From contig JAGADF010000008.1 of the NCBI GenBank assembly GCA_017613735.1, forward strand, positions 1 through 64,000: a stretch of 64,000 nt of DNA. The letters are read 5' to 3'. How positions within the stretch are numbered: the stretch's first letter is position 1; every line of letters starts with the position of its first letter. Made by a program: the position numbers and the translations under genes. The notes under the pieces were generated by a model, which saw nothing but the letters and a program-made list of their open reading frames with translations, had not been told where the DNA came from and did not search any database. This DNA is from Clostridia bacterium. Its GTDB lineage: Bacteria > Bacillota > Clostridia > Oscillospirales > Acutalibacteraceae. This document shows, piece by piece, positions 20,787 through 36,751 of the stretch.

Positions 20787-23693
20787 TTATACTTTTTTGC
20801 AGACGCCGTTTGAGGCAGCTCTCCATTTAACTCCACTGACCGAGAAAGACTTGCTCTTATACATTACGCAGTCGGAACCGAAGTAGTATTTTTTACCGCT
20901 GATTGAAGCGAACTTTGACTTGTAAGCAACGCCGTCCTTGCCGAAGTAATACTTCTTGCCGCTGACCGAAGCGAACTTGCTTGTATAGGCAACGCCGTCC
21001 TTGCCGAAGTAGTATTTCTTGCCGCTGACAGTTGCAAGCTTTGCCATATAAGCGGCACCGTTACTGCCGAAGTAATACTTCTTTCCGCCGACCGAAGCGA
21101 GCTTGGATATATAAGCAGCACCGTCCTTGCCGAAGTAATATTTCTTGCCGCTGACCGAAGCGAGCTTGGACTTATACATTACACCGTCTTTGCCCATATA
21201 ATACTTCTTGCCGCTGACGGTAATAAGTTTACTCTTAACCATTACACAGTCGGAGCCGAAGTAATACTTTTTACCGTCAAGAGACGCAAACTTGGACTTA
21301 TAAGCAACACAGTCGGGGCCGATATAGTATTTCTTACCGTCAACCGAAATGAGCTTTGATTTATAAGCCGCGCCGTCCTTGCCCATGTAATACTTCTTGC
21401 CGCTGACGGAAATAAGCTTGCTTGTGACCATTTTTCCGTTTGAATCGAAGTAATATTTCTTGCCGTCAATTGTTGCAAGCTTGCTCTTATAGTTAACGCC
21501 GTTCTCGATATATTCTTTGTGACCGTCCGGGAAGGTATTCCAGCCCTCATTTGGAGCAACCGCAAAGGTAAATGTAAAGGTATTTCTAACCGTCATTGTT
21601 GCCCAGTCAAAGCCTTCCATACCGGGGAACAAACCGTTAAATTCATAGAGCCAGCAGTTAAGCGGAGCTTCGGTTGTAACAGCCATATCTTTTACTTCGA
21701 CTTCGATACCGAATGAATCAATACCTTCGTAACCAAGCTCTGTGCCCGTACCGTCTTTAATGATAAATCCGGCGGGAGAAAGTGTAGCGCCTTCATAATT
21801 CTCGGAGAATCCGACGTAAGGCGTAAGTCCGTGAGCGGGGTTATTATCAAAATCGGTTTCGCACCAGAAGAACTTCTTTTCTCCGTTTTTAAGTGTGATA
21901 ACATCATCAGGGGTGTATCTGTTGCCCTCGTTATCAACGATTCTAACATAGGGAGCCCAGCTTGCTGCTCCTACTGTAAGCGACTGACCGAAGATAAAGT
22001 AATCGTGAACGCCTTCGGCGACGTGTGCACCGTCGTTAACATGGAAGTTCGCTTTGTCAAATGTAGTGTTTTCGGTAAAGATAATAGTACCGTTTACATC
22101 TTCATAATCATAAAGAACGGTATTCTCGTCATTGAGATCTGCCCATCTTTCAATGGCACAACAATGTCCTTCGCCGTCTTCACAAATTGAACCGTAAAAG
22201 CTGTCCGCAGAATAACTGCTCTTTATTTCAACCTGCTGTTCGCGTTCTTCATAAATAAAAGCGTTCCATTCGCTTGTTTCAAAATCCTGAGGATTGATTT
22301 CAATATCGCCTTCGCCGTTATTGAAAGTATAATCCTGGAACCAAAGGTCATAGGTATCACTGCGAACAAACTTGAAGATATGCCAGTCTGTGTGCGGATT
22401 ATCGGGATCTGTCTCATCTGTAATGAGTGTTGCAGTGTATTTTACTCCGTTTTCAGTTTCCTTATCGATAATATTTCCGCAACTGCTGGGATAACCGTCA
22501 TTCCTTAAGCTGTATGCGCCGACATCCTCGCCCGTATAGGTAAGACCTTCAAGCGTCTTTCCGTCAATGGGAGTAACAACATACTGACCGGGCAATTCGG
22601 GAATTGGGGAATATTCGCATACATAATCACCCCACTCTTCCGTATCCGGATTCCAGCTATGGGAATAAGCGAAATAATTATCATCGCTGTCCTTATATAT
22701 TCTTGCAGCCGATGTATGAGTCGCTATAGTCAAACGGTTGTTGAGCGTGGCAGGATTTTCATCTGTTACCATTGCAATTACGGGAGGATAAGCCGTAAGC
22801 AAAGCATCTTCTGTCTCGAACTTCTCACCGTTATAATCATAATCATACTCATAAACGCCTTCAATTATCTCTTTGATTCTTTCAACCTGATAACCTTCAG
22901 CAACATATTCGCCATGTTCGCCCAATTCCGGATCATAATGGCCGTACTCGGAATAAGTATAAATGCCGTCCGGATCATTTGGATTTGAAATCTGTTTGCC
23001 AAACCAACGGGAACTGCCGTCCATTTTTCTGATAATATAACCCTCGATTTCGCCGTCAAAAATCAATGTATCATTCTTTTGAACATTAACCTGCTGACCG
23101 TTTGCAAAAACGAAAACGGGAGGTTCGGGATTAGCGTCCGAGTCAAGTGCTTTCTCAACGCAGGCAACACCGCCGCTGGTACCGTCCAATGCATAAAGCG
23201 TAACATTTACGTTTTCGTCAAAGGTTACCGTAGGTCTTGAAAGACCGCATGCATTAACGCTGATTGCAAAATCGGCGTTTCTGTTTTCGTTAACAGTAAG
23301 GCTGCCCTCACCCGTAAATGTTACCGAGCATCCGTTTCCCTGACTGTCGGAAATTGAAATATTGTCAAGTGAGTTTTCGCCGACAAGTTCAATCTTGAAA
23401 TCATCGCCCATTGAGGATATACCGAGGCTGTACGGCATATTGTAATCGCTCAATGTCAATGTATTGGTAGCAAGATCGTATGTCGCGCCCTCAACGGGAT
23501 CAACATCAACACCGCCTTCATGGACAATAGCCATGTACGGTATTTCGGGATCGTAATTGTATGGGGGCAACATAAACCCGATATACCCGCCGCCGTCTAT
23601 CGGACCGTTACCCGCAAACGCGGTAAGCGGCAATACGCCGAGAACCATTACCAGCACAAGCAGTACTGCCAATACTTTTTTAGTTTTTTGCAT
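20787..23693 (-). CDS. large secreted protein with C-terminal cell-wall/choline-binding-type repeats
   Basis: The 968-residue protein has a signal peptide (residues 1-28, ending TAFA). A long, acidic, aromatic-rich central region contains segments such as VTFTGEGSLTVNENRN, seen in carbohydrate-binding or right-handed beta-type surface proteins; I cannot assign a catalytic domain. From about 735 to the end are 11 tandem repeats of 21 residues with core SGKKYYFGKDGVAYKSKLAS. These are the aromatic-glycine cell-wall-binding (glucan/choline-binding) type. The last copy is degenerate (VKWRAASNG). AGGAGG precedes the ATG. It is followed closely by the GtrA-like gene. Probable role: surface-attached binding protein; the ligand is unknown. 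Confidence 0.85.
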   Translation of the reverse strand: MQKTKKVLAVLLVLVMVLGVLPLTAFAGNGPIDGGGYIGFMLPPYNYDPEIPYMAIVHEGGVDVDPVEGATYDLATNTLTLSDYNMPYSLGISSMGDDFKIELVGENSLDNISISDSQGNGCSVTFTGEGSLTVNENRNADFAISVNACGLSRPTVTFDENVNVTLYALDGTSGGVACVEKALDSDANPEPPVFVFANGQQVNVQKNDTLIFDGEIEGYIIRKMDGSSRWFGKQISNPNDPDGIYTYSEYGHYDPELGEHGEYVAEGYQVERIKEIIEGVYEYDYDYNGEKFETEDALLTAYPPVIAMVTDENPATLNNRLTIATHTSAARIYKDSDDNYFAYSHSWNPDTEEWGDYVCEYSPIPELPGQYVVTPIDGKTLEGLTYTGEDVGAYSLRNDGYPSSCGNIIDKETENGVKYTATLITDETDPDNPHTDWHIFKFVRSDTYDLWFQDYTFNNGEGDIEINPQDFETSEWNAFIYEEREQQVEIKSSYSADSFYGSICEDGEGHCCAIERWADLNDENTVLYDYEDVNGTIIFTENTTFDKANFHVNDGAHVAEGVHDYFIFGQSLTVGAASWAPYVRIVDNEGNRYTPDDVITLKNGEKKFFWCETDFDNNPAHGLTPYVGFSENYEGATLSPAGFIIKDGTGTELGYEGIDSFGIEVEVKDMAVTTEAPLNCWLYEFNGLFPGMEGFDWATMTVRNTFTFTFAVAPNEGWNTFPDGHKEYIENGVNYKSKLATIDGKKYYFDSNGKMVTSKLISVSGKKYYMGKDGAAYKSKLISVDGKKYYIGPDCVAYKSKFASLDGKKYYFGSDCVMVKSKLITVSGKKYYMGKDGVMYKSKLASVSGKKYYFGKDGAAYISKLASVGGKKYYFGSNGAAYMAKLATVSGKKYYFGKDGVAYTSKFASVSGKKYYFGKDGVAYKSKFASISGKKYYFGSDCVMYKSKSFSVSGVKWRAASNGVCKKV
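20790..21490 (-). repeat. tandem 63-bp coding repeats
   Basis: About 11 direct repeats of 63 bp encode the 21-residue wall-binding motif. The segment around GCCGCTGACCGAAGC is nearly identical in several copies, so copy number could change by slippage or recombination. Confidence 0.85.
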
Positions 23694-23732: not shown

Positions 23733-24083
23733 TTAATCCGTACGGGCTTCTATTTCTTTTATAATGCACTCGTTTCCCTGAATAAGCCACGTTTCGCCGC
23801 TGTGGCAATAGGGACATTCCTTGCCGTATTTCACCGTTTCATAGTTCTTTTCGCAGTTTGAACAGTAAGTAACGGCGGGAATGGTTTCGAGCACCAATTC
23901 GGAATTTTCAAGCACCTTATGACGGCGTTTGAAATAATCCCAGCAGTCGATAAAATAATCAGTTACAATTCCCGATACCTCGCCGACCTGAAGAGTGACC
24001 TTGCCGATTTCGATAATATTTTCTTCCTCGGCGGTTTCGTCAAGAGTCTTTGCGAGGTTGAGAATTATTCCCATTTCATGCAT
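23733..24083 (-). CDS. hypA: HypA-like nickel metallochaperone
   Basis: The 116-residue protein begins MHEM, giving the His2/Glu3 nickel site of HypA/HybF. It has the family core LQVGEVSGIVTDYF and two CXXC pairs (Cys74/77 and Cys90/93) for structural zinc. HypA delivers nickel during [NiFe] hydrogenase or urease maturation. No hydrogenase, hypB-F or other nickel enzyme is encoded in this window. Instead it is the last gene after two large Fe-S flavoproteins, 17 bases after the second. It may serve a hydrogenase elsewhere or have been recruited to this system. Confidence 0.85.
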   Translation of the reverse strand: MHEMGIILNLAKTLDETAEEENIIEIGKVTLQVGEVSGIVTDYFIDCWDYFKRRHKVLENSELVLETIPAVTYCSNCEKNYETVKYGKECPYCHSGETWLIQGNECIIKEIEARTD

Positions 24084-24100
24084 ATCTTTTCCCCCGAAAA

Positions 24101-27022
24101 TCAGTCTTTCATAAGGGATTCAATATCAACCGCGTTACCCGTATGAGGATTGGTTTTATGGAATTCTTTCGTGCTTTTTTTGTATTCCCTGCGCTTTTTC
24201 CTCATTTCACGCGATTCGGAAGAGCCGCTGTTGAGAACGATTTTGAACGCTCTCGGAATAGCGTAGCCTGCGAGTCCGCCGACCTTATCCTCCGCTCTTC
24301 TCATATCGGACGCCTTGGGATGGTCGCGCACAAGATGGATGGCGTCAAATTCGCAGCGTGTGGTGCAAAGTCCGCAGCCTATGCACTTATTCGCGTCAAC
24401 TATTGTCGCTCCGCAGCCGAGGCAACGCGAGGTTTCGGTATGAACCTGCTCCTCGGTAAGAGTAAGCCTGTTATCGACGAAACCGTGTTTGTAATCAATG
24501 GATTCGTCAACAGCGGGAACCTGACGCTGAGCGGTGTCATAGGAATCTATTGCTATATTGTCTTTATCAAGAGATTTGAAATATCTGCGGTCGCGCGCAA
24601 GAGTCTGGGAAACGTTGTTCTTTGAAACGAATCTTACAAGGGATTCGGCAGCCTCGTGTCCCTGACCGATAGCGTCGATTACGAATTTCGGGCCCGTAAA
24701 TACGTCGCCGCCGACAAAAATACATTCATCGTCGGTCTGGTATGTAAAGGAATCGGCTACGGGGTAGTTTCCGTGATGGAACTGAACTTTAGTGCCCTCA
24801 AGCATTTTGCCCCATTCGACAGCCTGACCGATAGCGAAAACAACCTTTGAGGCGTTAACGGTTATTGTATCGTTTTCATCATACTTCGGTGAGAATTTAC
24901 CGTTTTCGTCAAGAGTTGAAATGCAGCGCTTAAGTATAACGCCGCTAACTCTTCCGCTGTCGTCGGTAAGAATTTCTTTCGGACCCCAGCCTGCGTCGAT
25001 AATAACGTTTTCGTCTTCCGCTTCTTCAATTTCTTCGGGAGAAGCGGGCATTGTTTCCCTCGACTCAAGGCAGAACATCGTAACCTTGTCCGCGCCCTTT
25101 CTCATAGCGGTTCTTGCGCAGTCTATGGCAACGTTGCCGCCGCCGATAACAACGACGTCACCGCTTAAATCCTTAGCAGTATCGGAAAGAGCCTTTTTAA
25201 GAAAATCAACCGCAATTTCCGTTCCCTCGGCGGTATCGCCGGGAACACCGGGAAGGCGGCCGCCCTGACAGCCGATTGCAATATAGAAAGCTTCGAAGCC
25301 CTCTTTTTTAAGCTCGTCAATGGTAACGTCCCTGCCAACCTCAACGCCGCATTTAATCTCAACGCCCAACTGACGGATAATGTCGATTTCGGCGTCGATT
25401 ACGTCTTTTTCAAGCTTGAATGACGGAATGCCGTATGTCATCATTCCGCCCGGCTTTTCGTTCTTTTCAAAAACGGTAGGCTTATAACCCATCGTCGCGA
25501 GATAGTAAGCGCAGGAAAGTCCCGTGGGGCCCGCGCCGATAATAGCGATTTTCTGTTCCCATTCGCCGCTGACTCTCTGGGTAACCTTCTTGGGAATATA
25601 TCTTGTTTCAGCTTTCAGGTCACGCTCTGCAAGGAACTTTTTAACGTCGTCAATAGCGACGGGCTTGTCGATAGTTCCCCTTGTGCAGGCGTCCTCACAA
25701 CGCTTGTTGCAGACGCGTCCGCATATTGCGGGGAACGGGTTTTCTTTCTTTATAAGGGCAAGCGCTTCGTCATATCTGCCCTGATTAGCCATTTTAAGAT
25801 AGCCCTGAATCGGAACGTGCGCGGGGCATGCGGCTTTACAGGGCGAAGTGCCTGTTTTATGAGTATTTACACGGGCGGTGTCCCTGTAATTCTCATCCCA
25901 GGCGTATTTGCCCCAGTGAATCTTATCGGGCAAAGGCTGCTTCGGATACTTAACAGGAGTTCCGTCCTTCTGACAAAGCTTCTGACCGAGTTTTACCGCG
26001 CCGGCGGGACAAACCTCAACGCATCTTCCGCAGGCAACGCAGTTTTCGGTGGTTACGTTTGCGGTATAAGCACTTCTTGAAAGGTTGGGCGTATTGAAAA
26101 GAAGAGATGTACGCAGTGCATTACAAATCTTAACGTTACAGTTACAGATATCGAAAATATGGTCGTCGCCGTCGATATTTGTTACCTGATGAACATAGCC
26201 GTTGTCCTCGGCTTTCTGAAGGATTTCAAGCGCTTCTTCCTTTGTGATATAGTGCGCTCTGCCCGTTTCGACGGTATAATCCGCCATATCGCCGACCTGT
26301 ATGCACCAGTCGTCGCCGTCGTCGGTACAGCCCTCGCCTAATTCCGCCCTCGAGTAACGGCAAGAGCAGATACCCGCGGAAAGGTGTCCTTCATATTTCT
26401 GAAGCCAGTAGGATATCTTTTCAAGACTGATTGCCTCACGGTTTGCATTAACCTCTTTCTCAACGGGGATAACATGCATTCCGATACCGTCGCCGCCCTG
26501 AGGAACCATTGAGGTAATATGCTCAAGCGGTAAAAAGGTCATTCTCTCGAACATTTTCGCAACCGGAGGATTATTCTTAATACGGTCAACCGATGAATTG
26601 AACAGCTCCGCGCTGCCGGGAACAAAGTAGCTTGTTCTGTAGCGCTTTTCTTTCGGAGCGCCCTCTATGGGACCGTTGTCGTCGTAATGGTCGCCGTAGT
26701 CATACTCGACAAAGCCGTGAACGCAAAGCCGGTCAAGACTTTTTTCAAACGTTTCGGCGTCCATATTCTTTTTATTCATTTCCAGCAGCTGGTCGTATGT
26801 ATACCATTTGCGCTGTTTCATTGTAAGAGCGATATCGACCTCGTGTTCATCAAGGATTTCACGAAGTCCCCAATACTCTTCATCAGTTGTTTTAAGACCG
26901 AAAATCTTATGAGGTACGTTATCGGTTATTTTCGCGCCGAGTTTCGCGTACTTTTTCTTTTTTTCGGCTTCACCGTCAAATTTTGACTTGGTGGCAGGGT
27001 TTTTATCATAGGTTTCAGGCAT
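24101..27022 (-). CDS. large Fe-S flavoprotein, GltD-like NAD(P)H oxidoreductase, paralogue B
   Basis: The 973-residue soluble protein has several domains. Residues 1-300 include a winged-helix-like segment and Cys clusters (ICSCR near 217, DICNCNVKIC near 290). A ferredoxin motif CVACGRCVEVCPAGA follows at about 325. Next come the GltD-type N-terminal Fe-S domain (CKAACPAHVPIQGYL, CGRVCNKRCEDACTRG) and two nucleotide-binding folds (IIGAGPTGLSCAYY for FAD, VVIGGGNVAIDCART for NAD(P)H). It ends with a second Fe-S region, CLGCG...CIGCGLCTTRCEFDA. It aligns end to end with paralogue A, 20 bp upstream, so the two arose by duplication. It probably moves electrons between NAD(P)H and a low-potential carrier, perhaps as an A/B complex. 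The domain calls are firm; the partner and direction are inferred. Confidence 0.8.
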   Translation of the reverse strand: MPETYDKNPATKSKFDGEAEKKKKYAKLGAKITDNVPHKIFGLKTTDEEYWGLREILDEHEVDIALTMKQRKWYTYDQLLEMNKKNMDAETFEKSLDRLCVHGFVEYDYGDHYDDNGPIEGAPKEKRYRTSYFVPGSAELFNSSVDRIKNNPPVAKMFERMTFLPLEHITSMVPQGGDGIGMHVIPVEKEVNANREAISLEKISYWLQKYEGHLSAGICSCRYSRAELGEGCTDDGDDWCIQVGDMADYTVETGRAHYITKEEALEILQKAEDNGYVHQVTNIDGDDHIFDICNCNVKICNALRTSLLFNTPNLSRSAYTANVTTENCVACGRCVEVCPAGAVKLGQKLCQKDGTPVKYPKQPLPDKIHWGKYAWDENYRDTARVNTHKTGTSPCKAACPAHVPIQGYLKMANQGRYDEALALIKKENPFPAICGRVCNKRCEDACTRGTIDKPVAIDDVKKFLAERDLKAETRYIPKKVTQRVSGEWEQKIAIIGAGPTGLSCAYYLATMGYKPTVFEKNEKPGGMMTYGIPSFKLEKDVIDAEIDIIRQLGVEIKCGVEVGRDVTIDELKKEGFEAFYIAIGCQGGRLPGVPGDTAEGTEIAVDFLKKALSDTAKDLSGDVVVIGGGNVAIDCARTAMRKGADKVTMFCLESRETMPASPEEIEEAEDENVIIDAGWGPKEILTDDSGRVSGVILKRCISTLDENGKFSPKYDENDTITVNASKVVFAIGQAVEWGKMLEGTKVQFHHGNYPVADSFTYQTDDECIFVGGDVFTGPKFVIDAIGQGHEAAESLVRFVSKNNVSQTLARDRRYFKSLDKDNIAIDSYDTAQRQVPAVDESIDYKHGFVDNRLTLTEEQVHTETSRCLGCGATIVDANKCIGCGLCTTRCEFDAIHLVRDHPKASDMRRAEDKVGGLAGYAIPRAFKIVLNSGSSESREMRKKRREYKKSTKEFHKTNPHTGNAVDIESLMKD

Positions 27023-27042
27023 TTGTTATCCTCCTCTTTTAT

Positions 27043-29859
27043 TTACTCCTGATATTCGGGTTTGTCGCCCGAAAGCTTTTTCTTAATAATCTTCATACCG
27101 CGTTTCAAGGCGTAAGGTCCGACTACCTTCATCATTTCCTCGGCCGTATGCATATCGCTCGCGCCGGGAATATCTCTTGAAAGATGAATAGCGTCAAACT
27201 CGCATCTCGTAGTACAAAGTCCGCAACCTATACACTGGTTAAGGTCGACGACAGTTGCGCCGCAGCCGAGGCAGCGGGAAGCTTCTGTTTTAACCTGCTC
27301 CTCGGTAAAGGGAACGCGAAGGTCGTCAAAGGTCTTGAGCGGATTGCCCTCACGCATACCGGGAGCCTGACGGTCGGCATTGTCATAAGACGGGAAAGTT
27401 ATATCATCGCGGTCAAGCTCGATAAACTCGCGAAGGTCTCTGCCGATTGTCATAGACTGATCGGGATGGACAAAGCGGTTAATCGAAACCATGCCCTGCT
27501 TGCCCTCGGCAATAGCGTCAATTGCAAAGCGCGCGCCGTGGTAAATGTCGCCGCCGACAAAGATATCGGGTTCTGCCGTCTGGAACGTAACCTTATTGGC
27601 TTTTGCGGTACCGTTGGGGTTAAGTTCAACCTTTGAGCCCTTAAGCAAATCGCCCCATTCGGCTGACTGACCGATTGCCATAAGAACATTTTTGCATTCA
27701 ACAGTAATTATATCGTTTTCGTCGTACTTCGGTGAGAAACGGTGTTCCTCATCAAAAACGGAAACGCACTTTTTAAATACTATCGCCTTAACGGAGCCGT
27801 CCTCATTTTTAAGAACCTCCTTCGGTCCCCAGCCGTTGAGGATTTCAATTCCCTCTTCCTCGACCTCGGCGATTTCATCCTTGGCTGCGGGCATTTCGTC
27901 GCGCTGCTCAAGGCAGAGCATTGTGACCTTTCCGTCGGTCGCTCTTCTTGCGGTCCTTGCGACATCAGCCGCTACGTTGCCGCCGCCTACGACTACCGTG
28001 TCGCCGTCAAGACGGATTGAAGAATCCTGATTGATTCTTCGAAGGAAGCTTACGCCCGACTCAACGCCCTTTGCGTCCTCGCCGTTAACGCCTGCCATTC
28101 TTCCGCCCTGAAGACCGATTGCGATATAGAACGCCTTATAGCCCTCGGCGCGCAGTTCGTCAAGAGTTATGTCCTTGCCGACTTCTACGCCGCACTTAAT
28201 CTCGGCACCCATCTTTTTGATTATTTCAATTTCAGCCTCGACAACCTTTTTATCAAGACGGAAATTGGGAATACCGATTGTGAGCATTCCGCCGGGCTTT
28301 GACTCCTTTTCGAATACGGTTACGGGGTAACCCTCGGTTCTTAAATAATAAGCCGCCGAAAGTCCCGCGGGGCCGGAGCCGATAACTGCGATTTTATAGT
28401 CGTCCCACTGCTCGCCGACGCCGTTATAGCAGACCTCGGGAACATATTCGTCAATATTGTCAAGTTCCCTGTAAGCAAGGAACTTTTTGATTTCATCAAT
28501 GGCGACGGGCTTATCGACAAGACCTCTTGTGCATCTGTCCTCGCATCTTCTGTTACAGACTGCGCCGCAGACTGCGGGGAACGGATTGTCCTGACGGATA
28601 AGTTTAAGAGCGTCTTTGTACCTGCCCTCAGCCGCCATCTTGATATAACCCTGAACCGCAAGATGAGCGGGGCAGGCTGTTTTACAGGGCGAAGTGCCCG
28701 TATCATAGCAATTAATCTTATTGTGGTCTCTGTAATCCTTATCCCACTTGTCCTCGCCCCATACGTGGTCGTCGGGAAGCGGATGAAGAGGATATTTAAC
28801 TCTCGTACCGTCGGACTTGCAGAGCTTCTGGCCGAGCTTTGCCGCTCCCGCGGGACAGACCTCAACGCACTTTCCGCATGCAACGCACTTTTCTTTATCG
28901 ACGTGCGCTCTGTACGCGGAACGCGACATATTCGGCGTATTGAAAAGCTGTGAGGTGCGAAGGCCGTAGCACGAACCCGCCGAGCAGTTACAGATACCGA
29001 CAATTTTATCGGGACCGTCAAGGTTTGTAATCTGGTGAACGTAGCCCTTTTTCTCGGAACGGAGAATAATCTCCATAGCCTCTTCACGGGTTATGTAGCG
29101 GGCGTCCTTGCCGCTTTCGACAAGAAATTCAGCCATATCGCCCAAGGCAATACACATATGACCTTCAATATCGCCCACGCCCTCGCCTCTTATTCTCTGG
29201 GCTTTACGGCAGGCGCAGACCATTGAACAGAATTTATCGTATTTATTAAGCCAGTGAGAAAGGTGCTCAACGCTTACGCTCTTGGATTCAACGGGGATTG
29301 CCTTTTCAACCGGAATAACGTGCATACCGATTCCCGCGCCGCCGGGAGGAATAAGCTTTGAAGCGAGTTCAAGCGGCTCCTGCGGGGCGAGGTTGAACAT
29401 TGTTGCAACCTCGGGATGGTCATCGGGAAGAGTTTTATGCTCTACCATATATTCGCCCGAGCCGACAACCCATTTGGGAATAAGGAACTGTCTTTCGTTA
29501 TCGGGATTCTCTCTGTTCTGTTCAAGAAGACCAATCCAGAGAATATGGTCAATAATCTTCTGAGCTTCTTCAACGGACATATTGTTCCTTTCGGCAAGCT
29601 CGCCTACGCGAAGAGGAACGCGCCTCTCTTTAAAGGAAAGCATAAACTTAACCTCTTCTTTGGTCAGAAGTCTGTCAAGAATCCAGAAATCCATATGGTT
29701 TTCTTTCATTTTGCCGGGGAGCTTACGCGGAATATTGTCCGTAATCATTACGGCAAGCTTTTTGACTAATTCCCTCTTTTCGGGGTCGTCGCAATGATAG
29801 TCTTCAAGAGGGAAATCTCTTTCGTTTACGTGGATATTGGGGTTTACGTCTCTGGGCAT
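27043..29859 (-). CDS. large Fe-S flavoprotein, GltD-like NAD(P)H oxidoreductase, paralogue A
   Basis: The 938-residue protein has the same plan as paralogue B. The N-terminal third has a winged-helix-like stretch (VGELAERNNMSVEEAQKI) and Cys clusters (MVCACRK, GICNCSAGSC). Next is a ferredoxin motif CVACGKCVEVCPAGA, then the GltD-like Fe-S segment (CKTACPAHLAVQGYI, CGAVCNRRCEDRCTRG). FAD (VIGSGPAGLSAAYY) and NAD(P)H (VVVGGGNVAADVART) folds follow, and the end is CIGCGLCTTRCEFDA. No glutamate synthase large subunit is nearby, so the GltD-like part is used in another electron-transfer role. It leads the A-B-hypA operon from a promoter at 29931-29959. The reductase partner is inferred from position only. 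Confidence 0.8.
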   Translation of the reverse strand: MPRDVNPNIHVNERDFPLEDYHCDDPEKRELVKKLAVMITDNIPRKLPGKMKENHMDFWILDRLLTKEEVKFMLSFKERRVPLRVGELAERNNMSVEEAQKIIDHILWIGLLEQNRENPDNERQFLIPKWVVGSGEYMVEHKTLPDDHPEVATMFNLAPQEPLELASKLIPPGGAGIGMHVIPVEKAIPVESKSVSVEHLSHWLNKYDKFCSMVCACRKAQRIRGEGVGDIEGHMCIALGDMAEFLVESGKDARYITREEAMEIILRSEKKGYVHQITNLDGPDKIVGICNCSAGSCYGLRTSQLFNTPNMSRSAYRAHVDKEKCVACGKCVEVCPAGAAKLGQKLCKSDGTRVKYPLHPLPDDHVWGEDKWDKDYRDHNKINCYDTGTSPCKTACPAHLAVQGYIKMAAEGRYKDALKLIRQDNPFPAVCGAVCNRRCEDRCTRGLVDKPVAIDEIKKFLAYRELDNIDEYVPEVCYNGVGEQWDDYKIAVIGSGPAGLSAAYYLRTEGYPVTVFEKESKPGGMLTIGIPNFRLDKKVVEAEIEIIKKMGAEIKCGVEVGKDITLDELRAEGYKAFYIAIGLQGGRMAGVNGEDAKGVESGVSFLRRINQDSSIRLDGDTVVVGGGNVAADVARTARRATDGKVTMLCLEQRDEMPAAKDEIAEVEEEGIEILNGWGPKEVLKNEDGSVKAIVFKKCVSVFDEEHRFSPKYDENDIITVECKNVLMAIGQSAEWGDLLKGSKVELNPNGTAKANKVTFQTAEPDIFVGGDIYHGARFAIDAIAEGKQGMVSINRFVHPDQSMTIGRDLREFIELDRDDITFPSYDNADRQAPGMREGNPLKTFDDLRVPFTEEQVKTEASRCLGCGATVVDLNQCIGCGLCTTRCEFDAIHLSRDIPGASDMHTAEEMMKVVGPYALKRGMKIIKKKLSGDKPEYQE

Positions 29860-29930
29860 TTGTATTCTCCTTTTACTGCCTGAGGCAGATAGATTTTGCC
29901 GTATGCAGACATAATGCTACATATAAAATA

Positions 29931-29959
29931 ATTATAAAACAAAATCAATGGCTTTTCAA
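29931..29959 (-). promoter_or_regulatory. promoter of the A-B-hypA operon
   Basis: Minus-strand TTGAAA (29959-29954), 17 bases, TATAAT (29936-29931). The implied leader is about 65 bases. Confidence 0.7.
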
Positions 29960-29975
29960 TGTAATTAATTGACAT
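29959..29975. promoter_or_regulatory. possible operator, 17-bp near-palindrome
   Basis: ATGTAATTAATTGACAT reads as an inverted repeat with one mismatched pair, directly abutting the -35 of the A-B-hypA promoter. Its position suits an activator or repressor site. The cognate regulator is unknown and AT richness makes chance occurrence possible. Confidence 0.35.
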
Positions 29976-30014
29976 AATAATTATATATATATTATATATT
30001 TAGCACAAAGAAAA

Positions 30015-30034
30015 AGGACGGCTCGAGCCGTCCT
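30015..30034 (-). terminator. intrinsic terminator after the ferredoxin reductase gene
   Basis: AGGACGGCTCGAGCCGTCCT is a perfect 20-bp palindrome followed on the minus strand by TTTTTCTTTG. It separates the reductase transcript from the A-B-hypA operon. Confidence 0.85.
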
Positions 30035-30052
30035 CTTCGTTTGATTATTAAA

Positions 30053-31252
30053 TTATTCCATTATCGGAACCTTGATTTTAAGGTCGCTTGTCGGATAGGA
30101 CGCGCAGGCATGGAACCAGCCGAACTCCTTATCCATCATACGCCTTCCGTCGCCGAGAGGCGAAACAAAGATTTCGCCCTCAAGCAGCTGTGTGCGGCAG
30201 AAGCCGCATTCGCCGCAGCGGCAGTGGGTATCAACGGGAATAGCCGCTCTTTCAAGAGCAACCGCAACGGGTTCGTTGCCCGACGCGGGAATTACCGTCT
30301 CGTCAATTCCGCGGACAACCGTGATATTAAAGGTCTTTGTTTCGTTGCCAATCGGGTAGCCGGGAATCTTTGTCGAATCGACGGGATTATTCATAACGTC
30401 GTGGCGGAAACGCTTTTCACGCACGCCCATTTCCTTGATTGTCTTGGAAATCAGGTTATACATCGGGAGCGGGCCGCAGAACATATACGTCGGGTCCTCG
30501 CCCGAATATTTTTCAATAATCTCTCTTGTGACAAAGCCCTTTTCGCCCTCCCACGTTTCGTCGTCGGAAAGAACGTGAACTACCTTTACATTCGGGCAAT
30601 CCTTTTCGACCTTGTCAAGTTCATCCTTCAGAACTATATCTGAAGAATTGACGGAGCCGTAGATTATAGTAATTTTACAGTCCTTCATCTTGCCGTAAGC
30701 GATTTCGCGCGCCATTGACAGAAACGGAGTGATGCCGCTGCCGCCCGCAAGAGCGACTATGTTGTTACTGTCACGAAGCGGCTCCCAGTAGAAGAAGCCG
30801 AAAGGCATATTCGCTTCGAGAATGTCGCCCTCTTTAACATTGTCAAAGAAGAAATCGGGAACAAGATAAGGTCTGTTTCTCCTGATTGTAACCTCGACAA
30901 AGCCGTTCTCCCCTCTTGCCTCAAAGGGAGCGGAGCTTATTGTATAAGGTCTTGTCAGGACGCTGTCGCCGATTTTAAGGCGGAAATTAATGTACTGACC
31001 TGCCTGAAAAACAGGGATATGACCGTCCGTCGACTGAAGCCTGAAAAGCTTTGAAGTCGGAGATGTGTCCTTGATAAGGGTAACCTTGAACTCCATCTTT
31101 GCGGGGTGCAGTTTATCCGCAAGTTCTCTGACAAAGTCCTTCGGCTGAGGCACGTCGGAAGCGTTTTCGATGCTCGCTTTTCTCATAGCGGTAACTCTTG
31201 AAGCGCCGCCGACATCCTTAAGAAAGCCCTTTACTTTAATGCTCTTGCTCAT
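30053..31252 (-). CDS. ferredoxin-NAD(P)H reductase with C-terminal [2Fe-2S] ferredoxin domain
   Basis: The 399-residue protein has a short N-terminal extension. The FAD domain follows, with RPYTISSAP near 118-126, and then the NAD(P)H domain with GGSGITPFLSM and a terminal CGPLPMY. The C-terminal plant-type ferredoxin carries four cysteines: C-x4-C-x2-C in HCRCGECGFC plus one in FHACASYP. This layout passes electrons from NAD(P)H through FAD to [2Fe-2S] and on to a partner. The gene overlaps the upstream flavoprotein by four bases (ATGA), so the two are translated together and are likely to interact. Electron supply to the phytoene-desaturase-like protein is my inference. Confidence 0.85.
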   Translation of the reverse strand: MSKSIKVKGFLKDVGGASRVTAMRKASIENASDVPQPKDFVRELADKLHPAKMEFKVTLIKDTSPTSKLFRLQSTDGHIPVFQAGQYINFRLKIGDSVLTRPYTISSAPFEARGENGFVEVTIRRNRPYLVPDFFFDNVKEGDILEANMPFGFFYWEPLRDSNNIVALAGGSGITPFLSMAREIAYGKMKDCKITIIYGSVNSSDIVLKDELDKVEKDCPNVKVVHVLSDDETWEGEKGFVTREIIEKYSGEDPTYMFCGPLPMYNLISKTIKEMGVREKRFRHDVMNNPVDSTKIPGYPIGNETKTFNITVVRGIDETVIPASGNEPVAVALERAAIPVDTHCRCGECGFCRTQLLEGEIFVSPLGDGRRMMDKEFGWFHACASYPTSDLKIKVPIME

Positions 31253-32790
31253 TTCACACCCTCCTTTTTCTCCATATCTTCAAGAATGGCCTTTGCAGCC
31301 GCCCTGCCGTTTGTGACAGCGGGTCCCATACCGTTACCCGACATTCCGGGAGAACCGTTGAATTCAAGTCCCTTGATGAAGTGGTCCTCTTCCTTCATGC
31401 CGAGGCGGGCTACGGCGTGGTTATCCATTGAATGGGTATAACCGTAGATACTACCCTTCCACGCGCCGACATAGTGAGAAATAGTCATGGGAGTTGTGAT
31501 TTCAATTTCAGTAATATTCGGTCTGAAATCAACGCCCGAAATCTTAATATATTCCTCCATCATTTCGTTACCGAGACGGCGCTTGAGGTCGAAATAATCC
31601 TCTTCCTTAACGCCTTCAAATGCGGTTACGGGAACAAGAGCGGTTATTGAAGCCTGCGTATAGCCCTTCGGTACACAATCGGGATTTGCATAGTTAAGGC
31701 AGATAGTCGTGATGTAGTTATACGGCTCGGTGAGATTCTTATAATTCTCCCAGATTTCGTTTGTATCCATTGTTCTGCCCGAGAATGTAGAATAGTTCAT
31801 AAGTCCGTTTTCTTCGGGAGTGCCCTCAAGAACGGCAATAAGAGAAACGGGACAAACCGAAAGCTTCATACCGTTTACAAACTTCACCGCACCTTTGGGA
31901 ACCTCGCTGAGAGGTTCAATCATCTGGGTGTAAACTTTATTCGGGTAAGGAGCGGAAACGACATAGTCGCAGTGAATTTCTTCACCGTTTCTCGTACGTA
32001 CTCCGTAAACCTTGCCGTCCTTGACAAGAATTTTGTCAACCTCCTGCTTAAACTCGAACTGAGCGCCGTTTTCCTCAACCTTCTTTTCAAGCTTCATGCT
32101 CATCTCATGAGAGTAACCGCGGCAGACATAACTTCCGCAGAAATAGTCAGCCATAAGGAAGGCGTAGATTGTGAACGGCAGGTCGTCCATACGGTTGCCG
32201 ACGTAAATCCAGTAAGGCGTGAGCATTTCAACCGCCCTTTTGGGAAGATGGAAGGTATTGATAACCTCGGTTGCGCTGTAGCCGACAGTCTTTACAAAAT
32301 CGGGATGCTGCTTTAACATCTGAAGCTTGCTCATAGGAGTTACGGACAGAATATTCATACTGTCATAAACCCTTCTGCACAGCAGGAGCAGCTCGTGAAC
32401 CTTTTCAAAAGAGCCGGGAACAACCGCATCAATTTCTCTTGCGGCGGTTTCGTAACCCTCGTGAAGAATTGCATCGATATTGGAATTGGGAAGAGCCACT
32501 CTGTAGCATTCAGGCACTTTGAGCCAGTCGATATCAACGCCCATATCGTCAAAGAACTGACCTATTTTAAGGCGATTGCCCTTCTCGCCTATTGACATCA
32601 TTTCGTGAAGCGTCGCCTCAATTTCAAAACCGTTTCTGACGAAATCGGTTGCAAGACCGCCGGGAAGGTTATGCTTTTCAAGGATAAGGATATCCTTGAC
32701 GCCCTTTGACTGCAGATGAAGAGCAGTTGACATTCCCGAAAGCGCGCCGCCTATGATTATTACGTCATAGTGGTCTTTAAAGAATTTCAT
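31249..32790 (-). CDS. phytoene desaturase/RetSat-superfamily FAD oxidoreductase, candidate fatty acid saturase
   Basis: The 513-residue protein has an N-terminal FAD motif VIIIGGALSGMSTALHL, in which Ala replaces the central glycine of GxGxxG. LEKHNLPGGLATDF follows, and the C-terminal FAD contact is SPGMSGNGMGPAVTNGRAAAK. This layout matches the CrtI/phytoene desaturase superfamily, which includes RetSat, an enzyme that adds hydrogen across a conjugated double bond. No carotenoid genes are present. Lying between a polyunsaturated fatty acid isomerase and a dedicated reductase, it could hydrogenate the conjugated diene the isomerase makes. That reaction is inference. AAAGGAAAA precedes the ATG, and an intrinsic terminator lies just upstream at 32825-32848. 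Confidence 0.75.
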   Translation of the reverse strand: MKFFKDHYDVIIIGGALSGMSTALHLQSKGVKDILILEKHNLPGGLATDFVRNGFEIEATLHEMMSIGEKGNRLKIGQFFDDMGVDIDWLKVPECYRVALPNSNIDAILHEGYETAAREIDAVVPGSFEKVHELLLLCRRVYDSMNILSVTPMSKLQMLKQHPDFVKTVGYSATEVINTFHLPKRAVEMLTPYWIYVGNRMDDLPFTIYAFLMADYFCGSYVCRGYSHEMSMKLEKKVEENGAQFEFKQEVDKILVKDGKVYGVRTRNGEEIHCDYVVSAPYPNKVYTQMIEPLSEVPKGAVKFVNGMKLSVCPVSLIAVLEGTPEENGLMNYSTFSGRTMDTNEIWENYKNLTEPYNYITTICLNYANPDCVPKGYTQASITALVPVTAFEGVKEEDYFDLKRRLGNEMMEEYIKISGVDFRPNITEIEITTPMTISHYVGAWKGSIYGYTHSMDNHAVARLGMKEEDHFIKGLEFNGSPGMSGNGMGPAVTNGRAAAKAILEDMEKKEGVK

Positions 32791-32824
32791 AGCGTTTTCC
32801 TTTCAAAAATCTAAATCGAAAAAA

Positions 32825-32848
32825 CGGGAAGGGGTAATCCCCTCCCCG
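32825..32848 (-). terminator. intrinsic terminator/attenuator between isomerase and flavoprotein genes
   Basis: CGGGAAGGGG (32825-32834) pairs with CCCCTCCCCG (32839-32848) with one mismatch around TAAT. The minus strand continues TTTTTTCG. Only 35 bases separate it from the next ATG, leaving little room for a full promoter, so downstream expression probably relies on read-through. Confidence 0.8.
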
Positions 32849-32864
32849 AATTTAACAAGAACGA

Positions 32865-34253
32865 TTAAAAGAAGCGGTCAATAAGCTCCTTGGAATACTC
32901 GGCGGTTTCGTCCATATCGCCGAAGGACATAATCTCACCTGCATAATAGGTGTCATACTTGCCCTGCATAGCTTCAACCTTATCGTACCAGCCAGCCGCA
33001 TAGTCCTCAGAGAAAACATGCGGGAAGTAGTAAACGCTCCACTCATTTACAACGTTTGAAGCGGGGTTGTGCATCGTCTTAAGGTCCTCAAGAACCATTT
33101 CCTTACACTTGTCGTAGGGAATTTCTTCGCTGTCCTTATGCTTACGAAGAGCATAGGTGGTGATAACCTGGTCCTTTGTATCCTTCCAGCGGCGATAATA
33201 AACCATAAGGTGACCGAGAGTCTGAGGAGTCATATTGTCGAAAACATAGTAAGAGATTTCGGGATGGTCCTCGGGCTTTGTCTCAACTGCGAGAACGTCG
33301 TAACGCTCGTAGTCAATCTTAGAGAAGAGCTCCTGCTCGTCATCGCGGGTGTCGAAATAATCGACCATGCCGATCTGACCGTCGTCGCGCTTATTGGGAA
33401 TGTAAAGCGGAGCGGTGACAATAATCTTGTCATACTCTTCAACTTCGCCGTTTACGGTGACATAAACCTTGCCGTCCTTACGCTCAACCTTTTCAATAGT
33501 CGAGTTAAGTCTTGCGGGGTTCTTAAGGTGGTCGTTAAGCTGTTCCCAGATATACTGAGTGCCGTTTTTCCAGGTCCAGAGATTAATCTTTACGAAATTC
33601 ATACAGGTCTGGAAATCAAGATACTTAAGTACATAAGCAGCCGGGATTTCATCAAAATAGCCGTAACCGAAGGAAGTGAACGGCCCGATCCAGATATCCT
33701 GAGTGAGTTCAACACCGTTGAGCTTGCACCAGTCTTTAAAGGGCATGCACAAATCCTTGAGGTTGGGGTTAACGCCGCTTACGGGCTCACGCTTTGCGTT
33801 CTGCTGTGAGAAGCCGTCGTATCTTCCCTCGGCAACGCCGCGGTGACCGTTTACGTCATAGCCCTTATATTTTGTTTCAAGAATCTCACCGAGCTTCTTG
33901 ACCTGCTTTTTCATCTTAAGAAGACGCGGGATTTTTGTAATGTTCTTTTTCGGCTCAAAGGGCTCGATAACATTACCCTGACCGTCCTTATAGTTACGGT
34001 TGAGCTGGGGGCCGTCGTGAGTGATTCCGCAGAATTCCTCAACATCGTGAACAGCGTAGTATGAAGGAACGCCCATAATAGCGCCCATCTCATAACGTCT
34101 GCCGTTATAAGTCGGTGACCAGCACTTGCCGCCTACGCGGTCAAGTCTTTCGAGAATAGTGTAGTTTTCATAACCCTTCTTCTCGAGATACATACCTGCG
34201 GAAAGACCTGCGGGGCCGCCGCCGATAATACAAATGCGAATGTCTTTTTCCAT
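32865..34253 (-). CDS. FAD-dependent polyenoic fatty acid isomerase (linoleate isomerase, PAI-like)
   Basis: The 462-residue flavoprotein closely resembles, as I recall its sequence, the Propionibacterium (Cutibacterium) acnes polyenoic fatty acid isomerase. That enzyme converts linoleate to trans-10,cis-12 conjugated linoleate by flavin hydride transfer. Shared stretches include the FAD motif IIGGGPAGLSAGMYLE (9-24), GRRYEMGAIMGVPSY (51-65), PFTSFGYGYFDEIPAAYVLK, LWTWKNGTQ, LGHLMVYYRRW, YYFPHVFSEDY and YYAGEIMSFG. An arginine at 86 matches the position I recall for the substrate-carboxylate Arg, and the conserved FGYG aromatic region is kept. The protein is longer than PAI by an insertion near 100-155. 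It acts on free fatty acids in the cytosol or at the membrane. It has its own promoter with an operator-like repeat. Family is confident; the exact product isomer is not known. Confidence 0.85.
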   Translation of the reverse strand: MEKDIRICIIGGGPAGLSAGMYLEKKGYENYTILERLDRVGGKCWSPTYNGRRYEMGAIMGVPSYYAVHDVEEFCGITHDGPQLNRNYKDGQGNVIEPFEPKKNITKIPRLLKMKKQVKKLGEILETKYKGYDVNGHRGVAEGRYDGFSQQNAKREPVSGVNPNLKDLCMPFKDWCKLNGVELTQDIWIGPFTSFGYGYFDEIPAAYVLKYLDFQTCMNFVKINLWTWKNGTQYIWEQLNDHLKNPARLNSTIEKVERKDGKVYVTVNGEVEEYDKIIVTAPLYIPNKRDDGQIGMVDYFDTRDDEQELFSKIDYERYDVLAVETKPEDHPEISYYVFDNMTPQTLGHLMVYYRRWKDTKDQVITTYALRKHKDSEEIPYDKCKEMVLEDLKTMHNPASNVVNEWSVYYFPHVFSEDYAAGWYDKVEAMQGKYDTYYAGEIMSFGDMDETAEYSKELIDRFF

Positions 34254-34283
34254 TTCTATTCCTCCATAAATAGATTGATAAAA

Positions 34284-34302
34284 ATATCACGACGATATTA
34301 TA
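34284..34302 (-). promoter_or_regulatory. isomerase promoter -10 with overlapping inverted repeat
   Basis: Minus-strand TATAAT (34302-34297) overlaps a perfect 15-bp inverted repeat, ATATC-ACGAC-GATAT (34284-34298), lying between -10 and about +5. This is the placement expected for a repressor operator. The -35 is poor. The regulator is unknown. Confidence 0.5.
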
Positions 34303-34393
34303 CATTATTTTTAAACAAAGTGCACTACTGGTTTATAAAATGTTTATTTTTTTTATTATTTTTGAAAAAAATCTACCATAACGCTGTTATTTA

Positions 34394-34402
34394 TGTTAAA
34401 AT
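34394..34402 (+). promoter_or_regulatory. extended -10 promoter of the acyl ligase operon
   Basis: TG-T-TAAAAT (34394-34402) lies 27 bases before the acyl ligase ATG. TTGAAA at 34362-34367 is slightly too far upstream for this -10; with TGTTAT (34385-34390) it would give a second choice at 17-base spacing. Confidence 0.45.
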
Positions 34403-34429
34403 ATAAAAAAAGCTTTCGGGAGGAATAAT

Positions 34430-35806
34430 ATGCGTTTCAATTCCTTTTACGAATTAATTGAACACTACGCGGATGAAAACGACCTTCACCCCGCCCTGAT
34501 TTTTGATAAAAACGGCGTTAAAAGTCAGATGAGCTATTATGAGTTGCTGAAGGCCGTTGAAACAAAAACAGACGAGCTTGAAAAAGACGGAAAAACCTGT
34601 CTTGGCATTTTCTGTTCGCCGACGGTTGAGTGCATAGTCACTGTTTTCGCTGCGGTCAGAGCAAAAAAGCAGGTAGTTCTGCTTGACGATTCGCTTTCGG
34701 ACGAAACTATACAGAAACAGATTGCTTCTTCCGATATTGACAGTCTGTGGAGCGCGGACGAAACCGCGGACGACTTTACGGACTTTCTCACCGCGGGAGT
34801 TGAAAAGGACGCGGGAAGAATTCTCTTTTTTACCTCCGGCACGACAAGTATGTCGAAGGTTGTTGTGCTTAACGAAAAATCGCTTTGTTCAAGCGCGTAT
34901 AACGGCTCGGCGATTCTTCCGCTCGAAAGAGACGATATTCTTCTGTGTCTGCTTCCCCTCTCACACGTTTTCGGCTTTGTATGCTCTCTTCTCTGGGGAC
35001 TTTCCTGCGGGAGCAGCGTAGCGCTCAGCAGAGGCGCAAGAAGCATAATGACTGATTTCGCATATTTTACTCCGACTGCGGTTTCGCTCGTTCCGATGCT
35101 TCTCGGTTTCTTTATGAAATGCAAGATTTTCAACGAAGAATTAAAGCTGATTCTCATAGGCGCGGGCGACTGCCCCGAAATGGTTCTCAACGCCGCCAAA
35201 AGGCTTGGTAAAAAAGTATGTTTCGGCTACGGACTTACGGAAACGAGTTCGGGCGTCGCGTTAAGCGTTTCGGGTGATTCAAGGGCTATGGAAATATGTC
35301 CGGACGACAGTATAAAAATCGCTTCCGACGGCGAAATTCTCATACACGCGCCAACATGCATTATGGAAGGTTATTACAAAGATACAGAGAGTACGCAGGA
35401 AGCAATCAAGGACGGTTATCTTCATTCGGGCGACCTCGGCTATCTCGACAGTAACGGCAGGCTCCATATCACGGGCAGAAAGAAGGAAATGCTCGTTCTT
35501 CCGAGCGGCACTAAGATTTTCCTTCCCGAATACGAAGCGGCTTTGTCTCGCGCGCTCGGCAACAGCGAGCTCGCGGTAATTCTTCTTAACGAAAGACCGG
35601 TTCTCGTTATTAACGAAAAAGAGGAAGCGCGGGAAAGAGCTCTCGAAATAATCAAGGAAGAAATGAAAAAGCACCCGAGAGCCAATCAGGTGGCGGATGT
35701 TATTTTCACTGAAAATAAACTACCCAGAACCGCGACAGGAAAAATAAAGCGCTGGGAAATCCAGAAAACGGAGGAAGAAAAAAATGGCAAAAATGACAAG
35801 GGATGA
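34430..35806 (+). CDS. adenylate-forming acyl ligase (acyl-ACP/acyl-CoA synthetase)
   Basis: The 458-residue enzyme activates a carboxylic acid with ATP and transfers it to a thiol. Motifs are the P-loop FFTSGTTSMSKVV, GYGLTE, SGDLGYLDSNGRLHITGRKKE (partly quoted: SGDLGYL and TGRKKE) and the C-terminal catalytic lysine in LPRTATGKIKR. It is shorter than most fatty acyl-CoA ligases. Its gene overlaps a free-standing ACP gene by 23 bases and is followed by an acyl-ACP thioesterase, so the acceptor is probably that ACP and the substrate a fatty acid. It is divergent from the isomerase gene. GGGAGG precedes the ATG. The acyl chain is not predictable by eye. Confidence 0.83.
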   Translation: MRFNSFYELIEHYADENDLHPALIFDKNGVKSQMSYYELLKAVETKTDELEKDGKTCLGIFCSPTVECIVTVFAAVRAKKQVVLLDDSLSDETIQKQIASSDIDSLWSADETADDFTDFLTAGVEKDAGRILFFTSGTTSMSKVVVLNEKSLCSSAYNGSAILPLERDDILLCLLPLSHVFGFVCSLLWGLSCGSSVALSRGARSIMTDFAYFTPTAVSLVPMLLGFFMKCKIFNEELKLILIGAGDCPEMVLNAAKRLGKKVCFGYGLTETSSGVALSVSGDSRAMEICPDDSIKIASDGEILIHAPTCIMEGYYKDTESTQEAIKDGYLHSGDLGYLDSNGRLHITGRKKEMLVLPSGTKIFLPEYEAALSRALGNSELAVILLNERPVLVINEKEEARERALEIIKEEMKKHPRANQVADVIFTENKLPRTATGKIKRWEIQKTEEEKNGKNDKG

Positions 35807-36035
35807 GTTACTCAGGGAAATTGTTGAGGTTGTTTATGAGTGCGCTCCCGAGCTTGAGGGCGTTGAGCTTAAAGAGGAAACCGTTATCAATACCGATACG
35901 GGTATAGATTCAATGGGTCTTACTCTTATTATCTGCCGCCTTGAAGCAAATCTCGGCGTTAATATTCCGCAAAGACAGTGGAAAAAGCTTTTCACACTCG
36001 GCGACGTTGTCGACGCGTTCTATTCAAGACTTTGA
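35784..36035 (+). CDS. acyl carrier protein
   Basis: The 83-residue acidic helical protein has the 4'-phosphopantetheine attachment Ser43 in GIDSMGLT, a DSL-type variant. The four-helix ACP pattern continues to DVVDAFYSRL. GGAGGAAG in the end of the ligase gene serves as its ribosome site. Because it is encoded between a ligase and a thioesterase and not with fab genes, it is probably a dedicated carrier rather than the housekeeping AcpP. Confidence 0.87.
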   Translation: MAKMTRDELLREIVEVVYECAPELEGVELKEETVINTDTGIDSMGLTLIICRLEANLGVNIPQRQWKKLFTLGDVVDAFYSRL

Positions 36036-36037
36036 TT

Positions 36038-36751
36038 ATGAGCATTTACGAAAAAGAGTATAAAATACAAAGCTCGGATGTCGATATGTTCCGCAGGCTT
36101 CGCATTTCAAAGCTGTTTGAATTTATGCAGGAAGCCGCCATTCACCATACGGAAGAGCTCGGCGCAGGCAGAGAAAAAACCCTCGACAGAGGGTTTTTAT
36201 GGGTTGTTACAATGCAGCACGCCGAAATAAAACGCCTGCCCGAATACGACGAAGAGATAAAACTTATTTCCCGGCCGGGAAAGACAATGCACGTTATGTT
36301 TCCGAGGTATTATTCGGTCGTTGATTCGGACGAAAATGAAATTGTCAGGGGCAGCGCGCTGTGGATGCTTATGGATATGAATAACCGTAAAATGATTTTC
36401 CCCGAAGCCGAAGGAATAAGCATAGAAGGCTCGGTAACAGGCAACGAATACGAACTGCCCAAAGCCATAAAGCCGGAGGAAACCGACGAAAGCTATTCGC
36501 TTAAAGTCCCTTACAGCTTTACGGATATTAACGGGCATCTCACGAATACAAAGTATTTCGATATCGCCGAGGACATTACGCTTAACGCGTCTGAAAACCG
36601 CCCGCCGAAGTACGTTTCGGTCGAGTATTCGGGTGAAGCGAGATTCGGTGAAAAGCTCGATATTCAATTCCGTCAGAGCGAAAACGAAATCTATCTTTTC
36701 GGCACGAAGGACGAGGGCAAAAAGGTTTTCAAACTGAAAATGATATATTGA
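36038..36751 (+). CDS. acyl-ACP thioesterase (FatA/FatB family)
   Basis: The 237-residue double-hotdog protein hydrolyses acyl-ACP to free fatty acid. The first hotdog starts YKIQSSDVDMFRRLRISKLF, with MQEAAIHHTEELG at 32-44. The second has VPYSFTDINGHLTNTKYFD, containing the Asp/Asn/His set typical of bacterial FatA-like enzymes. The start at 36038 lies two bases after the ACP stop; an in-frame start 20 codons earlier lies inside the ACP gene and is rejected. With the ligase and ACP it forms a load-carry-release set for fatty acids. A terminator follows directly. Confidence 0.86.
   Translation: MSIYEKEYKIQSSDVDMFRRLRISKLFEFMQEAAIHHTEELGAGREKTLDRGFLWVVTMQHAEIKRLPEYDEEIKLISRPGKTMHVMFPRYYSVVDSDENEIVRGSALWMLMDMNNRKMIFPEAEGISIEGSVTGNEYELPKAIKPEETDESYSLKVPYSFTDINGHLTNTKYFDIAEDITLNASENRPPKYVSVEYSGEARFGEKLDIQFRQSENEIYLFGTKDEGKKVFKLKMIY

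Follow-up and report, generated by a model that had tools for sequence, protein, structure and literature searches.

Introduction

Biohydrogenation in the rumen influences which saturated and trans fats milk and meat contain. The trans-10,cis-12 isomer of conjugated linoleic acid (CLA) is held responsible for low milk fat (PMC10019597), the main biohydrogenating species are reported to be still unknown (PMC6037716), and the part played by cultured trans-10 producers is described as controversial, with the taxa linked to the trans-10 shift including Lachnospiraceae, the Eubacterium coprostanoligenes group and also Muribaculaceae (PMC9853040). The polyunsaturated fatty acid double-bond isomerase (PAI) of Cutibacterium acnes (P. 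acnes in the cited work), produced in E. coli and Lactococcus, acts on linoleate provided to these hosts, and the P. acnes product is mostly trans-10,cis-12 (t10,c12) CLA with some trans-10-18:1 (t10-18:1) (PMC2885616). In Butyrivibrio, for which a detoxification role has been argued (PMC2836310), NADH is used 1:1 for the reduction of rumenate, a conjugated linoleate (PMC4478896). According to PMC4478896 and PMC2654759, the cis-9,trans-11-CLA reductase of Butyrivibrio fibrisolvens goes back to Hughes 1982 and was sequenced by Fukuda 2007. As of 2015, searches for the Butyrivibrio reductase were described as impossible, the enzyme being outside KEGG, COG and Pfam (PMC4478896). Rumen metagenome-assembled genomes (MAGs) with PAI have already been published (PMC10019597). 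Here, we describe a nine-gene island containing a PAI-like gene at positions 23733–36751 of a 64,000-nucleotide stretch (the window) from a Clostridia bacterium of the Acutalibacteraceae (GCA_017613735.1, contig JAGADF010000008.1, positions 1–64,000).

The island is read here as a biohydrogenation system for exogenous linoleic acid, perhaps also for other polyunsaturated acids, and most likely for the trans-10 branch. We place the probability of this reading at roughly 0.7, with the chemistry deduced from homology and gene linkage. In the first step, which is well supported by homology, PAI would convert free linoleate to trans-10,cis-12 conjugated linoleate through a shift of its cis-9 double bond. 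Gene linkage and superfamily membership then point to a ferredoxin reductase-like protein (FNR) that would pass NAD(P)H electrons via FAD and a [2Fe-2S] center to a RetSat/CrtI-type flavoprotein. The latter would reduce the conjugated diene at one of its double bonds, with trans-10-18:1 as the probable product. A ligase may load the fatty acid on the acyl carrier protein (ACP) of the island and a thioesterase may release it, before or after reduction, and two large flavoproteins (A and B) with HypA and HypB may constitute an additional redox unit of NAD(P)H/Fe-S type serving the pathway.

Results

Gene content of the island

Open frames and translations of window proteins were assigned to families using Pfam and NCBIfam profiles and PDB searches. 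All nine genes listed in the preliminary description were recovered at the places given there and in the families or superfamilies named. On the minus strand, the PAI gene is followed by the genes for the RetSat-like protein and FNR and then by the closely packed genes for B, A, and HypA. The divergent plus-strand genes encode an acyl-adenylate-forming ligase (34430–35806; 458 aa; PF00501) that is a candidate acyl-ACP synthetase, an ACP (35784–36035; 83 aa; PF00550) with its attachment site at Ser43, and an acyl-ACP thioesterase (36038–36751; 237 aa; PF01643 and PF20791), whose frame is open from 35978, the start at 36038 being a chosen inner ATG.

By homology, PAI (32865–34253, minus strand; 462 aa, FAD-dependent, Amino_oxidase PF01593) is the firmest identification among the nine. 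The protein matched C. acnes PAI (PDB 2b9w) over nearly its full length (E 4.6e-136), and two counted stretches share 111 of their 197 residues. Residues R86, F195, and F220 correspond to R88, F168, and F193 of 2b9w, which we take to shape the substrate pocket, and were present in 80/80 related loci; in a wider nine-row alignment with more distant sequences, both Phe residues were invariant and the Arg was not. A separate group of PAI genes, termed type B (51–54% identical), was seen in loci L154–L156, where they adjoin an A/B-type flavoprotein and RetSat is not in the locus. HypA also occurs in L154 and L155, and two HypB-like frames were recognized by eye in L154.

Conservation of the gene set

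A named genome collection yielded 423 PAI relatives, of which the best 80 were kept, and genes were counted only on contigs long enough to hold them. Many uncultured gut bacteria, for the most part from cattle, goats, sheep, and deer, share the island core. RetSat follows PAI in 77/78 loci and FNR follows in 73/74. The divergent ligase was found in 70/74 and ACP in 68/72 (with the attachment Ser in 69/69), while the thioesterase was present in 62/67. Three of the 80 loci lack RetSat; two of these lie on contigs that end too soon and belong to genomes with RetSat elsewhere, and the third is L099. A RetSat search of 23 of the 80 genomes was positive in 22. The 6.5 kb downstream of PAI include B in 44/58 loci, and among the 36 loci of at least 19 kb, A/B-type genes were found in 31 (with only a weak partial match in L099), HypA in 18, and HypB in 17. 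The island is not a chance arrangement, as further genera and families have the same set.

Genome samples were then used to ask how closely the genes co-occur. PAI is present in 8 of 394 genomes from the same order, including the genome of the window, and a RetSat profile found relatives in 22 of the 394 at E 1e-40. Their best scores were at least 722 bits in 7 genomes and at most 353 in the other 15, with a second copy in G286 scoring 373; the RetSat subfamily was therefore defined in this sample as >700 bits, a threshold set once the score gap had been seen. All seven subfamily genomes are among the eight with PAI (Fisher p 2.9e-14), and RetSat adjoins PAI in six of them, lying on another contig in G286. 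The second sample comprised 250 genomes from the same family as G402 (locus L072, titled Lachnospiraceae), counting both G402, the center of the sample, chosen for its island, and G397, reached via another locus. RetSat (>600 bits) occurs in 7 of these genomes, PAI in 11, and both in 6 (p 1e-8). The six PAI scoring >700 bits are all accompanied by RetSat and the five lower-scoring ones lack it; a relative of 346 bits occurs in G650. The preliminary description had proposed co-occurrence as a check on its assignment, and the linkage over 80 loci and both genome samples is strongly favorable to it.

The titles of 67 of the 80 entries, a share for which there is no baseline, are ruminant or RUG (33 mention a host or organ of ruminant kind and 34 are RUG or Tb.RUG), and the remaining 13 are uninformative; we take RUG to mean rumen uncultured genome. 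The regular presence of a dedicated ligase, ACP, and thioesterase would also suit an island for making or remodeling unusual lipids of the cell itself, whose ACP-bound acyl chains would be conjugated or trans, and not for hydrogenation of dietary fat. This alternative is considered quite improbable, given the ruminant-rich titles and the action of P. acnes PAI on linoleate supplied to E. coli and Lactococcus (PMC2885616).

The RetSat-FNR pair

The gene for the RetSat/CrtI/CRTISO-type flavoprotein (31249–32790, minus strand; 513 aa), the candidate conjugated-diene reductase, has its stop overlapped by 4 bases by the start of the gene for FNR (30053–31252, minus strand; 399 aa), an FAD/NAD(P) reductase with FAD_binding_6, NAD_binding_1, and a C-terminal [2Fe-2S] Fer2 domain. 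The FNR cysteines 344, 349, 352, and 383 are conserved in 71/71 sequences. The RetSat-like protein matched the CrtI/CRTISO superfamily over its full length, but its best NCBIfam matches, crtI_fam (103.7 bits; cut-off 238.1) and carotenoid isomerase (100.7 bits; cut-off 586.9), fail the curated cut-offs of both families. As these scores are far below the cut-offs, it was assigned at superfamily level only. PDB profile searches returned CrtI-type and generic FAD proteins (4rep, E 8.3e-18, with the profile matched over ~300 positions), and retinol saturase itself was among no matches in the searches made; the likeness to retinol saturase is our assumption. The sequence of isomerase, diene reductase, and acyl handling put forward in the preliminary description is still the best reading, although its reductase scores under the curated cut-offs.

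FNR adjoins a RetSat relative in 28/29 further loci, 4 of which have PAI, and evolutionary distances for RetSat and FNR are strongly correlated (Mantel rho 0.84; permutation maximum 0.19) across 60 loci, 20 of the 80 being excluded because a gene was short or missing. In view of this pairing and correlation, RetSat and FNR are taken to form a reductase of two components, the near subfamily of which serves the PAI product specifically. The preliminary description has electrons reach the RetSat-like protein from both FNR and A/B, but its constant partner is FNR and not A/B: of the 22 genomes from the order that contain a RetSat relative, 11 lack any A/B relative at E 1e-150, and A/B adjoin PAI without RetSat in three of five type-B PAI loci.

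Several observations weigh against the biohydrogenation reading. L099 has PAI, ligase, and ACP, and RetSat was not found in its genome. In the order sample, G333 has PAI without the RetSat subfamily, and in the second family the same is true of 5 of the 11 PAI genomes, while G491 has RetSat without PAI. Distances for PAI and RetSat are only weakly correlated (rho 0.23; permutation maximum 0.21), and those for the ligase with RetSat (0.19; maximum 0.21) and with FNR (0.19; maximum 0.23) are within the permutation range. The 80 loci are the best-scoring of 423, and rumen MAG series may abound in the collection. The ATP cost of ACP loading would fit a pure electron sink poorly. Finally, RetSat relatives with FNR also occur without PAI, so the pair would presumably serve other substrates too.

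This last observation bears on the possibility that RetSat-FNR acts on an unrelated polyene (a carotenoid, retinoid, or terpenoid) and that its place beside PAI reflects something else shared. The superfamily matches are indeed carotenoid enzymes, and there are many RetSat paralogues without PAI, several of them (by eye) behind a TetR-like gene. However, the distribution of the near RetSat subfamily nearly coincides with that of PAI, and we regard an unrelated substrate as very unlikely. Two further arrangements were observed in the surveyed loci. L125–L136 contain a wider RetSat-FNR family (~30% identical to the window protein) with no PAI in the stretch, and it is among these that TetR-like genes were seen. 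L137–L139 represent a third form, in which RetSat, FNR, a B-type flavoprotein, and HypA occur without PAI; a HypB-like frame was recognized by eye in L139.

Flavoproteins A and B and their HypA/HypB neighbors

Flavoproteins A (24101–27022; 973 aa) and B (27043–29859; 938 aa) are minus-strand paralogues with 51% identity. Both contain Fer4, Fer4_20, and Pyr_redox_2, and B has an additional C-terminal Fer4. B scored below the gltA cut-off (278.3 vs. 471.75 bits), and no GltA/GltD equivalog or subfamily level was reached. Beyond their GltD-like parts, A and B have an N-terminus of ~310 residues before the ferredoxin part. This region gave weak winged-helix matches to PDB profiles (best E 0.0072) and contains six invariant cysteines (C215, C217, C236, C290, C292, and C297) in 43/43 rows and also in a 12-row alignment. 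Inner stops in seven examined genes were investigated as possible selenocysteine codons and rejected: six were the terminal stop and one reflected an interrupted B-like gene (G286).

The adjacent gene encodes a HypA-like metallochaperone (23733–24083, minus strand; 116 aa) that is over the PF01155 cut-off (100.5 bits) and under that of the NCBIfam hypA equivalog (71.8 bits; cut-off 88.1). HypA or HypB adjoins A/B in 14 of 16 stretches (L171–L186) from 13 same-order genomes. Full HypA was found in 20/21 genomes with A/B vs. 3/59 without (p 1e-14), the latter being the 59 searched of 373 same-order genomes lacking A/B; G049 has a further short match. The NiFe hydrogenase large subunit (PF00374) was found neither in the genome of the window nor in 8/9 genomes with the island or A/B. 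The only match was in G627, over positions 1–69, and among these nine genomes HypD was likewise over its cut-off in G627 alone. Urease was rejected as a HypA client, with urease alpha matching just short stretches in one of the nine. Since HypA/HypB genes lie beside A/B, HypA co-occurs with them, and hydrogenase was mostly not found, A/B look like the clients of HypA/HypB and may be a HypAB-matured oxidoreductase. More tentatively, A/B could belong to a class of NAD(P)H iron-sulfur oxidoreductases that has no name so far, is matured by HypA/HypB and may contain nickel, the metal being bound in the six-cysteine N-terminus. Such an enzyme would have been recruited to drive the redox chemistry of anaerobic biohydrogenation of fatty acids and of further pathways with RetSat-FNR; we regard this proposal as a whole as possible but doubtful.

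A/B relatives (E 1e-150) occur in 21 of the 394 same-order genomes, including all 8 with PAI but only 13 of the 386 without it (p 1.5e-11), and in three of five type-B PAI loci, A/B are found beside PAI without RetSat. For this latter reason, a reductase role for A/B is retained as a rival: A/B, with a metal inserted by HypAB, would supply or perform diene reduction, and RetSat-FNR would perform another step, such as a second isomerization or monoene reduction. However, in the searches made, A/B matched just electron-transfer parts, and the match to dihydropyrimidine dehydrogenase stops at residue 513 of 1025. In 14/58 loci, B was also missing from the 6.5 kb downstream of PAI, though at least 5 of the 14 have A/B elsewhere in the locus. 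Taken with these points, a reductase role for A/B is unlikely, and diene reduction by RetSat-FNR is preferred.

Evolutionary history of the island

PAI is 85–94% identical between genomes of different genera and families. Recent horizontal transfer was considered as the cause and ruled out by the near-saturated fourfold-degenerate sites, where median identity is 0.31–0.37, alike for PAI, RetSat, ligase, FNR, thioesterase, and B. Given near saturation in all six genes compared, the island is, on these alignments, old, with PAI and B strongly constrained. The patchy distribution (2 of 8 same-genus genomes listed) allows older transfer or loss. In the same-genus genome G237, the order of A, B, and HypA differs, and a search of 20 kb found no counterpart of six genes that flank the island in the window. 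Two loci with titles naming Sphaerochaetaceae (L038 and L069) carry the island core; comparison of the composition of sampled contigs gave no decision on cross-phylum transfer, and misbinning is possible. In the window, the island is adjoined by a gene (20787–23693) for a 968-aa protein with C-terminal choline-binding-type repeats, which was unmatched in the eight related loci compared.

Candidate regulatory sites

The gap between the divergent PAI and ligase genes was examined in 71 sequences (70 related loci and the window). On the PAI side, the window has a promoter-like pair consisting of a GTGCA box, 18 bases, and TATAAT (34297–34325, minus strand). A TGCA box and TATAAT 17–21 bases apart occur in 35/71 gaps, compared with a mean of 0.1 and a maximum of 2 in shuffles, and the spacer is exactly 18 in 33/36; no such pair was found on the ligase side (0/71). 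The pair is a candidate promoter of conserved but unusual, non-standard form. Directly past TATAAT is an inverted repeat, TGATA-N4-TATCA (34276–34289), a candidate operator confined to the window and a few near relatives: it is exact in 3/71 gaps, its GATA core is found in 5/71, and it is the single match within the window, with 0.02 expected. Three other minus-strand sites were identified by consensus match only: terminator-like hairpins between the PAI and RetSat genes (32825–32848) and between those for FNR and B (30011–30038), and a promoter-like TTGAAA-17-TATAAT ahead of B (29931–29959). The hairpins past PAI and FNR, with the promoter-like site ahead of B, suggest three transcription units on the minus strand.

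Discussion

The conserved candidate gene set offers a testable genetic basis for the origin of rumen trans-10 fatty acids, and it makes the biohydrogenating species, the trans-10 producers, and the identity of the reductase directly testable. Within the excerpts of open-licence PMC papers, no paper was found linking PAI, RetSat, FNR, ligase, ACP, and thioesterase, or placing a RetSat/CrtI-type reductase beside PAI. The published rumen MAGs with PAI differ in that, in the excerpted text, no neighboring reductase, ligase, ACP, or thioesterase is described (PMC10019597). The Butyrivibrio CLA reductase may belong to the same family as the RetSat-like protein, which, if true, would lower the novelty of the present assignment.

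A and B share Fer4_20 and Pyr_redox_2 with the electron-transfer half of GltD, NfnB, and dihydropyrimidine dehydrogenase and differ from these in their extra N-terminus, with its six cysteines and winged-helix-like character, and in their HypA/HypB neighbors. The island RetSat is distinguished from the retinol saturase/CrtI/CRTISO superfamily by its adjoining FNR gene, present in 73/74 island loci and 28/29 others. If our reading is right, the island would share with the B. fibrisolvens CLA reductase the NADH-linked reduction of a conjugated 18:2, whereas the B. fibrisolvens enzyme serves the trans-11 branch. The PAI described here is homologous to C. acnes PAI over nearly its full length, including the equivalents of R88, F168, and F193; close to half of the positions compared are different, and the gene stands in a nine-gene island.

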